Shown: in pieces, positions 12,755 to 16,662 of the stretch
How positions within the stretch are numbered: position 1 is the first letter of the stretch
How the letters are laid out: each line of letters starts with the position of its first letter
Assembly: GCF_900604965.1 (NCBI RefSeq)
Contig: NZ_UWPD01000001.1
Location: 248,001 to 312,000 of the forward strand
Source of the DNA: Gordonibacter sp. Marseille-P4307
GTDB lineage: Bacteria > Actinomycetota > Coriobacteriia > Coriobacteriales > Eggerthellaceae
DNA: 64,000 bases
Direction of reading: 5' to 3'
Translations under genes and position numbers: made by a program
Notes under the pieces: model-generated
The model's database searches: none
The model's input: the letters and a program-made list of their open reading frames with translations, nothing else
Told to the model about the DNA's origin: nothing

Positions 12755-12811
12755 GGGCCGGCGGGAGATTTTGCTAACGACGTGTTTCGAAGCGATTTCT
12801 CCCGTCGGCCC
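12755..12811 (+). terminator. imperfect hairpin after the zinc-ribbon gene
   Basis: Arms of 14 bases (12755-12768 and 12798-12811, GGGCCGGCGGGAGA paired with one G-T wobble) enclose a 29-base loop. GTCTTTCGTTCT follows, a weak T-rich tail. It is placed 28 bases after the stop codon. Confidence 0.45.
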
Positions 12812-12825
12812 GTCTTTCGTTCTGC

Positions 12826-12831
12826 TATAGT
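12826..12831 (+). promoter_or_regulatory. -10 box (TATAGT) in front of the leader ORF
   Basis: TATAGT ends 8 bases before the ATG of a 32-residue reading frame. This spacing would give a transcript that starts at or within a couple of bases of the ATG. No clear -35 element is seen. Confidence 0.45.
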
Positions 12832-12839
12832 TCCGCGCC

Positions 12840-12938
12840 ATGAGCATTTCGACGACATACGCATCTTCGACCCGCACCTCCCGGGTGCGAACCGATGCGG
12901 CTCTCGTCTCTTTCCCTTATTCCTACCGATACCTGTAG
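12840..12938 (+). CDS. putative leader peptide (32 aa) upstream of the symporter
   Basis: ATG to TAG, 32 codons, with no Shine-Dalgarno but a -10-like TATAGT directly in front, so it may be read from a leaderless transcript. The first half is rich in Ser, Thr and Arg (S-T-R-T-S-R-V-R). The end is strikingly aromatic: FPYSYRYL then stop, with one Phe and three Tyr in eight codons. It is followed at once by a nested stem-loop (12939-12991) and then by the sodium:solute symporter gene 115 bases on. This layout fits ribosome-mediated attenuation responding to an aromatic amino acid. Chance is possible, since only one sequence is seen. Confidence 0.4.
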   Translation: MSISTTYASSTRTSRVRTDAALVSFPYSYRYL

Positions 12939-12991
12939 CACACGGGCGCAGTCCCTGTACGCTGCGCTGTCCGCGCGGCAACAACCGTGTG
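12939..12991 (+). promoter_or_regulatory. nested stem-loop directly after the leader ORF
   Basis: CACACGG (12939-12945) pairs with CCGTGTG (12985-12991); inside it CGCAG (12947-12951) pairs with CTGCG (12962-12966). The structure starts on the base after the leader stop codon, where ribosome position could influence folding. Confidence 0.4.
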
Positions 12992-13053
12992 CGCCTCCGG
13001 CCCGTCTGTTTCGGCAACCGTTTCACCAACGGCAGTATCGATAGGAACCACCC

Positions 13054-14562
13054 ATGATAAAAATACTGATGGTGCTCGTTTTCTTGGCTTCAGCCATCGG
13101 CATCGGCTTCGCTACGCGCGCAACATCGCGCAGCATCGACGGGTTCGTGCTGGGCGGACGCAACGTCGGCCCGTGGATGTCGGCGTTCGCATTCGGCACC
13201 AGCTACTTCTCCGCCGTCATCTTCGTCGGATACGCCGGGCAGTTCGGATGGAAATACGGTCTGGCAGCCACCTGGATCGGTGTGGGAAACGCACTGTTGG
13301 GAAGCCTGCTTGCCTGGTGGGTGCTGGGTCCGAAGACCCGCAAAGCGACCCGCGAGCTCGATGCGGCCACCATGCCCGAATTCTTCGGCAAGCGCTTCGG
13401 ATCCAACGCCCTGCGCATCGCATCGGCAGCCATCATCTTCGTGTTCCTCGTCCCTTACACGGCCAGCATCTACAACGGGCTCTCACGCCTATTCGGCATG
13501 GCCTTCGGCGTGCCCTACGAGGCATGCGTCGTCATCATGGCTATCGCCACCTGCGCCTACGTGGTGCTAGGAGGATACATGGCCACCGTGGTGAACGATT
13601 TCGTCCAGGGCCTCGTCATGCTGTTCGGCATCGCGGCCGTCATCGTGGGCGTACTTGACGGCCAGGGCGGAATCGCGCAGGCGGTGCAGAGCCTCGCGGA
13701 GGTATCCGACCCCTCCACTTCCCTTGTCGCCCCCTTCGCCAGCCTCTTCGGCCCCGATCTGCCCAACTTGCTGGGCGTCGTGGTGCTCACCAGCCTGGGA
13801 ACCTGGGGGCTGCCCCAGATGATCCAGAAGTTCTACGCCATCAAAACCGACTCGGCCGTTCAGAAGGGCGCGATCATCTCGACCCTGTTCGCCCTCGTGG
13901 TTGCCGGGGGAAGCTACTTTCTAGGAGGGTTCGGACGTCTCTACGGCGACCAGATCGAACGCGGGGCCAACGGATCTCCCGTCTACGACAGCATCGTTCC
14001 CACCATGCTGTCGGGCCTTCCCGACATCCTCATCGGACTGGTTATCGTGCTGGTGCTGTCCGCTTCGATGAGCACGCTGTCCTCGCTGGTTCTCACCTCG
14101 TCGTCAACACTCACCCTCGATCTGATCGATCGCAACCTCGTCGATTTCAAGACGCCCGAGCGCAAGGTGGCGTGCATGCGCGCGCTTCTGGCGGTGTTCG
14201 TAGCCGTATCCGCTGCAATCGCGCTCGTGCAGCACACGTCCTCGGTCACGTTCATCGCCCAGCTGATGTCTATCTCCTGGGGTGCGCTGGCCGGATCGTT
14301 CCTCGGCCCGTTTTTCTGGGGACTCTATGCGAAGCGCGTGTCGCGGGCGGCGGTATGGACCAGCTTCGTCGTCGGGGTTGGCCTCACTGTCGGGAACATG
14401 ATCCTCGGATCCTTCGGAATGCCGGTCTTCGCCTCGGCCATCAACTGCGGCGCAGCGGCCATGGTGCTCTCGCTGATATCGGTTCCGCTGGTCAGTCGCT
14501 TCACGAAGCCAGCCGACCCGGCAGCGCCCGCGCAGAATCGGCAAGACGCTCCGACGGCCTAG
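13054..14562 (+). CDS. sodium:solute symporter (SSS family)
   Basis: A 502-residue polytopic membrane protein, about 13 hydrophobic helices, matching the SSS/PutP family. It has a GFVLGGRNVGPWMSAFAFG region after helix 1 and a GGYMATVVNDFVQGLVML segment, the conserved SSS signature region. It imports a solute with sodium; the substrate (amino acid, sugar or organic acid) cannot be read from the sequence. The ATG at 13054 is preceded by TAGGA. The 327-base leader region upstream contains a putative terminator, a leader peptide and a stem-loop, which suggests regulation of transcription elongation. Confidence 0.9.
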   Translation: MIKILMVLVFLASAIGIGFATRATSRSIDGFVLGGRNVGPWMSAFAFGTSYFSAVIFVGYAGQFGWKYGLAATWIGVGNALLGSLLAWWVLGPKTRKATRELDAATMPEFFGKRFGSNALRIASAAIIFVFLVPYTASIYNGLSRLFGMAFGVPYEACVVIMAIATCAYVVLGGYMATVVNDFVQGLVMLFGIAAVIVGVLDGQGGIAQAVQSLAEVSDPSTSLVAPFASLFGPDLPNLLGVVVLTSLGTWGLPQMIQKFYAIKTDSAVQKGAIISTLFALVVAGGSYFLGGFGRLYGDQIERGANGSPVYDSIVPTMLSGLPDILIGLVIVLVLSASMSTLSSLVLTSSSTLTLDLIDRNLVDFKTPERKVACMRALLAVFVAVSAAIALVQHTSSVTFIAQLMSISWGALAGSFLGPFFWGLYAKRVSRAAVWTSFVVGVGLTVGNMILGSFGMPVFASAINCGAAAMVLSLISVPLVSRFTKPADPAAPAQNRQDAPTA

Positions 14563-14619: not shown

Positions 14620-16221
14620 TTACCGAGCCCGCCCCCGTCGGGCGCGAATCGCTTGGAACGCGCCTTCGAACGCAGCCTTCTGCCGGGCGTTCCATGCACC
14701 CATATCGTCCGAGGTGAAAAGGACGCTTCCCAACGAAGAGGCCTCGATCGCCCGCGCCCGTCGTTCGGCGGAAAGCTTCGTATCGCCACTCAGCGTAACG
14801 ACATCGGGATCGATCCCGAAGGCTCGGCCGTCAAGAGCGCAGCGACCCCGCGTAGAGGCGATGTTGTTCTTCGCGCTGGCGCGTTCGCGGTGCAGCAAGC
14901 GCATATGCAAAAGGCCATCCCAGCCCGGCCTCACATCGCATCCCACACGCACGTAATCCAGCACGCCGAAGGCCGAGGACAGCGGAACGCCGCCACCCAC
15001 AACGACACACGCCTCGCCTGCCGCCTCGCGCAGAAGGCCCAGCGCGTCGGCCATCAACTGCCCGCGGTTCATCCCATCGTGTGGAAACATGCATGCAGCG
15101 TAGAGAAAATCGGCCTTCAGGAGGGAGAAGCCCCAAACGCCCGTCATGGTGGAAACGCAGCGGCGCACGTAATCGCGCACCCCGGGATGCCGGGTGTTCA
15201 GTGCAAGCATCCCTCCCCAATGCGGAGCGACGGTTACCCTCCGCCCGCGATCGTCGCGCAAAAGCCAATCGGGATGCTCTGCCGCCACGCGCGATGCCGC
15301 CGAACACGCGAACGGGGCGATCCACAGACCGGGTTCGAGGCCCTGCGCCCTGATCCGGTCGGCCAGCTTGTCCAAACCAGAGGGGAACCGCGTGCGATCG
15401 ACCTCCATCCAATCCCCCGCGCAGCAGTACCCGGCGTCCAACCGAAACACGCGCCGTGCCCCCTTCATCGGATGATCGGCGAAAAACGCTGCCGCGCCCT
15501 TCAGGTCGTCCAGCAGACCGCGTTCGTCCACGCGATCGAAGCGACGATACCAACTGGTATAGCCCACCAGCGCAAGATTGTCGCGGGCAACACATCCAAC
15601 CAGGTCGAACCAACGATCGTACACCTCATCGGCAGAGCCCGACACCACGCAGTAACGCGCCAGCGAAACGCGCTCGCCCGCCGCGATCATACGTTCGGGC
15701 ACCTCGGTGTCAGCCGTCACCACTCCCCCGAATGCATCGGTTCTGAACAGGGTGAACCCCTGGCTCTCGTCCAGCGAGGCAAGAAGAAGGCAGCGATCAC
15801 CCCGCCGAAGCACCGCATAGGAGAACGCATGCATCTCGCCCGCGCGGCCCGTGTACTCCACGAAGCGGTAATCGCCCATCCCGTCCAACGCGCAGCGTCT
15901 CTTCACGAATTCGGGAACGCGGTTCAGTCCGCGCATCTTATCCCACACGGAACGCTCGGCCGTATCGGTCCAGCTCTGATAGCCATTCAGCAGCACGCGT
16001 TCGTCATCTGCGTACTGGTGGCGAAACCCGATCGAGCAGGCGGCCATCGTCAGATCGACGTTGGGCGTGATAGCCAGCTCCAGCACTTCGCCGTCGAACG
16101 ACGCTTCGATCCGCGCCTCCCCCGAATCGAACGACTCGAACGGAACCTGGCGCACGTCGAGGCCCTCGCCGGTCGCCAGGCGATAGCGTATCCAGCAAAA
16201 CGCCGGGGACAGCTCCATCAT
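14620..16221 (-). CDS. GH36-type alpha-galactosidase
   Basis: A 533-residue glycoside hydrolase of the melibiase/GH36-GH27 clan D type. The N-terminal beta-rich region contains NGYQSW. The TIM barrel carries FRLDAGYC, GLWIAPFACS, the nucleophile motif LKADFLYA (Asp371) and the acid/base motif RVGCDVRPG (Asp429). The expected activity is cleavage of terminal alpha-galactosides (melibiose, raffinose-type sugars). It is shorter than classical GH36 enzymes (about 700), lacking part of the N-terminal and C-terminal sandwich domains. No signal peptide is seen, so it should be cytoplasmic. ATG-ATG start with GAGGG upstream. Confidence 0.85.
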   Translation of the reverse strand: MMELSPAFCWIRYRLATGEGLDVRQVPFESFDSGEARIEASFDGEVLELAITPNVDLTMAACSIGFRHQYADDERVLLNGYQSWTDTAERSVWDKMRGLNRVPEFVKRRCALDGMGDYRFVEYTGRAGEMHAFSYAVLRRGDRCLLLASLDESQGFTLFRTDAFGGVVTADTEVPERMIAAGERVSLARYCVVSGSADEVYDRWFDLVGCVARDNLALVGYTSWYRRFDRVDERGLLDDLKGAAAFFADHPMKGARRVFRLDAGYCCAGDWMEVDRTRFPSGLDKLADRIRAQGLEPGLWIAPFACSAASRVAAEHPDWLLRDDRGRRVTVAPHWGGMLALNTRHPGVRDYVRRCVSTMTGVWGFSLLKADFLYAACMFPHDGMNRGQLMADALGLLREAAGEACVVVGGGVPLSSAFGVLDYVRVGCDVRPGWDGLLHMRLLHRERASAKNNIASTRGRCALDGRAFGIDPDVVTLSGDTKLSAERRARAIEASSLGSVLFTSDDMGAWNARQKAAFEGAFQAIRARRGRAR

Positions 16222-16459: not shown

Positions 16460-16476
16460 TCGTCCCATGAATTCTG

Positions 16477-16622
16477 TTTCAGGGCGAGGTGAAAATCCTC
16501 ACTGGCGGTAATCGGAGCCGGCGGTCAAGCCGCGCCCCCCGAGAGTCCGCGAACCCTGCGCTTCGCAGGGCCGATCCGGTGGAATTCCGGAACCAACGGT
16601 TACAGTCCGGATGGAAGAGGCA
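16477..16622 (+). promoter_or_regulatory. FMN riboswitch (RFN element)
   Basis: The conserved RFN blocks occur in order: TTTCAGGGCGAGGTGAAA, then TCCTCACTGGCGGTAATC, GCGGTCAAGCCGC, GAGTCCGCGA, a variable stem (CCCTGCG/CGCAGGG), GATCCGGTGGAATTCCGGAA, and CAACGGTTACAGTCCGGATG. This aptamer binds flavin mononucleotide. It is followed by a terminator hairpin and then by the riboflavin transporter gene, so binding of FMN should switch off uptake. Confidence 0.97.
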
Positions 16623-16662
16623 GAAATCGCACGCGATCGCACTATATTCGCATGTGGTTACG

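Follow-up and report, generated by a model that had tools for sequence, protein, structure and literature searches.

A tyrosine-rich leader peptide as a probable ribosome-position attenuator of a sodium:solute symporter in Eggerthellaceae

The sequence preceding a sodium:solute symporter gene in the window (the whole 64,000-nucleotide stretch of Gordonibacter DNA analysed here) probably acts as a ribosome-position attenuator of a sodium-driven transporter, which in turn probably imports an aromatic amino acid. The leader peptide encoded there is one member of a family of leader peptides that precede the same symporter in Eggerthellaceae, and its tyrosine codons, fixed CGA codon, conserved reading frame and compensated RNA pairings are the main grounds for this reading.

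The leader ORF and its distribution

The leader ORF of the window (12840-12938, plus strand) has 32 codons, translates as MSISTTYASSTRTSRVRTDAALVSFPYSYRYL* and ends FPYSYRYL-stop. An extended -10 box, TGcTATAGT (12823-12831, plus strand; TATAGT at 12826-12831 preceded by TG), stands 8 nt 5' of the ATG at 12840 and is found in relatives as TGnTAnAGT, and no Shine-Dalgarno sequence could be seen upstream of that ATG. The sequence-only reading had named the same TATAGT, 8 bases before a 32-codon ORF devoid of a ribosome site, as well as the FPYSYRYL-stop end and a stem-loop at the stop; all of these are present, the stem starting from the last base of the stop codon. A standard sigma-70 scan of the window promoter returned no site, because this promoter has no -35 match. 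Further upstream, a strong terminator-like hairpin (12755-12811, plus strand), with compensated changes in the congener G001, sits 3' of a zinc-ribbon gene and parts that gene from the leader. The entire leader is alignable with that of G001, which retains the -10 box, the ATG, the frame, YSYRYL*, both stems and the complement of the Shine-Dalgarno sequence.

The exact motif CGA-TAY-NNN-TAG-hairpin arm (pattern CGATAYNNNTAGCRYRYGG) was found in 28 of 48 Eggerthellaceae genera (90 of 138 genomes), with few exceptions as a single copy, and near variants occur in about 16 further genomes of the family, while symporter orthologues are present in 120 of the 138. In nearly all carriers the motif lies 105-490 nt 5' of the symporter. 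It also precedes the same symporter in two neighbouring families of the order (f3 and f6), and is absent from all 140 genomes of the sister family f2. Chance occurrence of the motif was ruled out by controls, the reversed pattern giving only a handful of matches compared with 90 of 138 genomes for the true one. A contig end falls at the matches in G038 and G059 and at the second match in G039, and close to the second copy in G084; a second match in G137 and a match in G330, with no symporter beside either, were rejected as chance. The leaders of relatives end in YYSYRYL, YYYYSYRYL, QFEFRYQ, AIYYFRYC, IYRYC and similar sequences. Some leaders reach 95-117 residues through internal repeats, AVMSEHFAQKC and ALMSAHKAAQC for example, which were observed in genera g2, g8, g23, g32, g44 and g47 (L131-L243).

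Several tests based on comparison among relatives show that the leader is under selection as a translated ORF. When any ATG or GTG located 5-9 nt 3' of TGnTAnAGT upstream of the motif was tabulated, the candidate starts were in frame with the CGA codon in 90 of 90 cases, mostly at a spacing of 6-7 nt from the -10 box, and TGnTAnAGT lies 6-9 nt 5' of an in-frame start in 89 genomes. Substitutions at codon positions 1, 2 and 3 numbered 611, 658 and 1573, and 54 of 56 indels were in multiples of three, both counts being taken over congener pairs that are not independent of one another. The frame is thus retained in relatives, as an alignment proposed with the sequence-only reading was to reveal, and conserved Tyr/Phe codons together with compensated stem changes were seen there as well. 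The synonymous bias expected from the same alignment holds family-wide and fails in the window/G001 pair taken alone, which has no third-position excess, the signal at position 3 coming from the wider family. With the extended -10 box conserved at 6-8 nt from the start codon, a leaderless layout is almost certain, the mRNA presumably beginning at or close to that codon, and the proposal of a leaderless start is borne out by the conserved spacing.

Near leader position +16, about 90 relatives from most genera share ATG-N12-GGACAT(A), conserved at the nucleotide level with GGA and CAT fixed; its counterpart in the window is GACATA at 12854-12859, shifted by 2 nt. No consistent pairing partner for GGACAT was found inside the leader, and the hexamer is not enriched elsewhere.

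Tyrosine codons and the fixed CGA codon

Tyrosine makes up 34.7% of the last 9 leader residues, compared with 1.3% of the preceding 36, so the leader is a short translated ORF rich in the codons of one amino acid, as attenuators are. The presumed sensing segment in the window, F-P-Y-S-Y-R(CGA)-Y-L-stop, occupies 12912-12938 on the plus strand, and CGA-TAY-x-stop is near-invariant across the family, with Tyr at position -2 and Arg at -3. The arginine codon at -3 is CGA in 101 of 102 leaders and its synonyms are avoided there. Arginine codons elsewhere in the leaders are mostly CGC and include only 19 CGA among 170; in the genes of the window CGA accounts for 22 of 305. Since CGA is so nearly fixed at this one position (101/102 versus 19/170), the constraint must bear on the codon or its nucleotides and not on arginine alone, which fits a constraint at the level of decoding better than one at the level of the peptide. 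Residue -1, by comparison, is unconstrained (L, C, Q, F, I, H, R, W or absent), the number of tyrosines differs between leaders through in-frame runs, and leaders with a single tyrosine exist, for example SASDRYF and RPNRYR.

These patterns suggest that the signal is probably slow decoding of Tyr codons, reflecting the supply of tyrosyl-tRNA, and a P-site CGA may delay reading of the Tyr codon that follows. The main rival is ligand-induced arrest resembling that of TnaC, in which the nascent ...YRY(x) and free tyrosine or another aromatic compound would block release at the stop, so that abundant substrate induces the symporter, the held ribosome preventing the terminator or freeing the Shine-Dalgarno sequence. 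It is retained as such because RY-stop is so constant and the adjacent genes (iorAB and paaK-like) look catabolic. The near-invariant RY lies beside a stop that is in or next to the terminator arm, and a minimal RY-stop persists where the Tyr run has been lost. Nevertheless, we consider arrest unlikely: the free variation of residue -1 leaves no fixed release-site residue of the TnaC type, an arginine held as CGA is a codon-level constraint that peptide arrest would not need, and the variable length of the in-frame Tyr runs is closer to codon counting. Because Tyr-run number varies, synonymous change of CGA is excluded and residue -1 is free, decoding of tyrosine codons is favoured over arrest.

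RNA structures at the leader end

The predicted fold of the region 12826-13060 has an energy of -82.2 kcal/mol (z = -3.38), and none of 200 shuffled sequences was equally stable. Within it, a stem shared by nearly all relatives is formed by the 5' arm GCACACGG (12938-12945, plus strand), beginning at the last base of the leader stop codon, and the 3' arm CCGTGTGC (12985-12992, plus strand). All 8 pairs of GCACACGG with CCGUGUGC are present in 101 of 106 sequences, compared with 4% when the arms are shuffled, and covariation is seen. The strong conservation of this stem, together with that of the 5' GGACAT motif at the nucleotide level, would agree with a riboswitch or protein-binding RNA centred on it, the ORF being of minor importance. 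Such an arrangement is improbable, given that no aptamer core is visible within the stem, whose interior is hypervariable in both length and sequence, and that the ORF is clearly under coding selection. Rfam covariance models also gave no match to the leader region and 20 related loci, with the sole exception of a sub-threshold match of the mir-483 model to the upstream hairpin, which is implausible; riboswitch and T-box were both rejected for want of an Rfam match and a conserved core.

Beyond the shared stem, the predicted OFF structures appear to be of two sorts, split largely by genus. Of 106 sequences, 49 have an intrinsic terminator, complete with U-tract, whose 5' arm includes or borders the leader stop codon, and the arms of this terminator carry compensated changes among relatives, from UAGC:GCUA to UGGC:GCCA and also AAGC:GCUU. 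The remaining 57 sequences, the window among them, have no U-tract; in the window none follows the leader stop, and the intrinsic terminator of classical trp-type attenuation is missing. Here the last leader codons hold a putative anti-Shine-Dalgarno segment, TTCCTA-C-CGATAC (12920-12932, plus strand), which in the folded OFF state would pair with the symporter Shine-Dalgarno region, GTATCG-A-TAGGAA (13035-13047, plus strand). The segment is kept in G001 and compensated in G046, where a matched double change (UUCCUUUCGA with UCGAAAGGAA) is found in the pairing. Ribosome-position attenuation, as first proposed from the sequence, is accordingly supported by layout and conservation, with the correction that the OFF state in the window is Shine-Dalgarno sequestration and the hairpin is no terminator.

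A permutation test on duplex energies, pairing leader ends with the Shine-Dalgarno regions of other genera, was not significant, partly because the same Shine-Dalgarno sequence recurs across genera, and a comparison of exact Watson-Crick runs between output classes was used in its place. Runs of at least 8 from the last codons to the symporter Shine-Dalgarno region occur in 18 of 56 sequences of the non-terminator class versus 0 of 46 of the terminator class, and CGATAGG, of which the window genome has only 15 sites, occurs in 15 of 56 versus 1 of 46. Several genera have neither a terminator nor clear Shine-Dalgarno pairing. Modelled masking of a ribosome footprint placed at the stop, Tyr -2 or codon -6 raised the accessibility of the window Shine-Dalgarno sequence from 0.19 to about 0.63, and masking at codon -20 left it at 0.19. 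A similar effect was obtained for several other genomes, with no gain in G020, G066, G067 and G103.

The leader ORF thus runs into, or up to, one of two RNA structures that exclude each other, and a ribosome on the final leader codons would block either OFF structure and turn the symporter on. The proposed sequence of events is that the promoter at 12823-12831 would give a transcript starting at, or about 1 base from, the leader ATG, on which ribosomes would consequently load without a Shine-Dalgarno sequence. With plentiful Tyr-tRNA, the ribosome would complete the leader and depart, leaving UUCCUA-C-CGAUAC to pair with GUAUCG-A-UAGGAA at the symporter Shine-Dalgarno region and keep symporter translation low; with a ribosome detained at the final Tyr codons or at the stop codon, the pairing would be blocked and the symporter made. 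In other genera the held ribosome would keep the intrinsic terminator from forming, since the 5' arm of the terminator takes in or adjoins the leader stop codon. From codon -6 a ribosome would fall short of that terminator, so that only stalling on the last 2-4 codons could work in this class. Switching of the structures in cells is presumed. As a tentative extension, CGA-UAY-(x)-stop could be a purpose-built slow decoding context, in which a P-site CGA turns reading of the following Tyr codon into the rate-limiting, sensing step, in a module that evolved toward either a terminator or Shine-Dalgarno sequestration before the same gene and whose leaderless 5' end carries a separate nucleotide signal, ATG-N12-GGACAT.

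The symporter, known leader peptides and significance

The gene presumed to be regulated starts 115 nt after the leader stop and encodes a 502-aa symporter of the SSF family (13054-14562, plus strand). The sodium:solute symporter named by the sequence-only reading is confirmed by a PF00474 match (188.5 bits, E 2.5e-55) well above the gathering score of 22.8, and its score falls under every substrate-specific cutoff. In about 40 genomes, iorA (indolepyruvate oxidoreductase alpha; TIGR03336, 626 bits, slightly below cutoff) or a paaK-like gene, coding for a protein that resembles phenylacetate-CoA ligase, lies closely 5' of the symporter; in the window genome both genes lie away from it, near 470 kb of the contig. 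The indolepyruvate oxidoreductase/CoA ligase pathway converts aromatic amino acids into arylacetyl-CoA, and given these neighbouring genes an aromatic substrate of the symporter is likely.

In G085, G086 and G132, the paaK-like gene itself ends in RY-stop inside the element and replaces the leader, and in G130 the element holds an apparent remnant (the last codons) of this gene; none of the four has a Tyr run. That the paaK-like gene can stand in for the leader would suit constitutive translational coupling, whereby the leader or upstream gene merely brings ribosomes that unwind the Shine-Dalgarno sequence without sensing an amino acid. We give this explanation little credence, as it leaves the tyrosine enrichment, the CGA invariance and the terminators overlapping the stop unexplained.

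Fusion of the paaK-like gene into the element, ending FDSRY-stop or FDNRY-stop, was observed in L249, L250, L251 and G086. An NhaC/Tet(35)-like antiporter gene lies 3' of the symporter in several genera (e.g., L262, 9759-11555), and in the window a melibiase-like glycoside hydrolase gene (14620-16221, minus strand) is convergent with the symporter. Beyond it, an FMN riboswitch (RF00050, 100.6 bits, 16471-16626) precedes genes for an S component and an ATPase of the ECF type, a commonplace layout for riboflavin uptake.

Attenuation by leader peptides is an established mode of regulation, in Actinobacteria included, and the present leader is a variant of which no description was found in the open-licence literature. 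As presented in PMC11802643, citing Neshat 2014, the AroR leader 5' of aroF in Corynebacterium glutamicum contains Phe-Tyr-Phe codons and acts by ribosome stalling. It is likewise an actinobacterial leader peptide with aromatic codons, but by that account precedes a biosynthetic gene and responds to Phe instead of Tyr, whereas the present leader precedes a symporter, is dominated by Tyr and has a fixed CGA-TAY-stop. As in the classical transcription attenuators trpL and pheL, a codon run for the presumably sensed amino acid is present and ribosome position would select the RNA structure; here, however, the held ribosome seems to act at the leader end itself, directly preventing the OFF structure, and no antiterminator between separate segments was found in the present leader. 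The TnaC leader of tnaCAB, an operon for a Trp permease and catabolism, shares the aromatic transporter context and the protection of downstream expression by a ribosome at the leader stop, but it depends on Rho and requires Pro24 at the release site (PMC10941005). In the present leaders the final residue is not fixed, and the terminators are intrinsic or give way to Shine-Dalgarno pairing. Leader peptides of actinobacterial cys operons also carry an amino acid run directly before the stop, in that case of Cys, but belong to other genes, and conserved hairpins such as those seen here were not found for them (PMC1262725).

Initiation without a Shine-Dalgarno sequence could be studied on these leaderless leaders, and the fixed CGA codon allows codon-level and peptide-level sensing to be told apart by direct test. 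Across the family, one leader peptide before the same gene would control transcription termination in some genera and translation in others, a naturally occurring series. If the proposed reading is true, a widespread gut family would possess a tyrosine-linked switch on an uncharacterised transporter beside genes for aromatic amino acid fermentation, providing a handle on the uptake of aromatic compounds by Eggerthellaceae.
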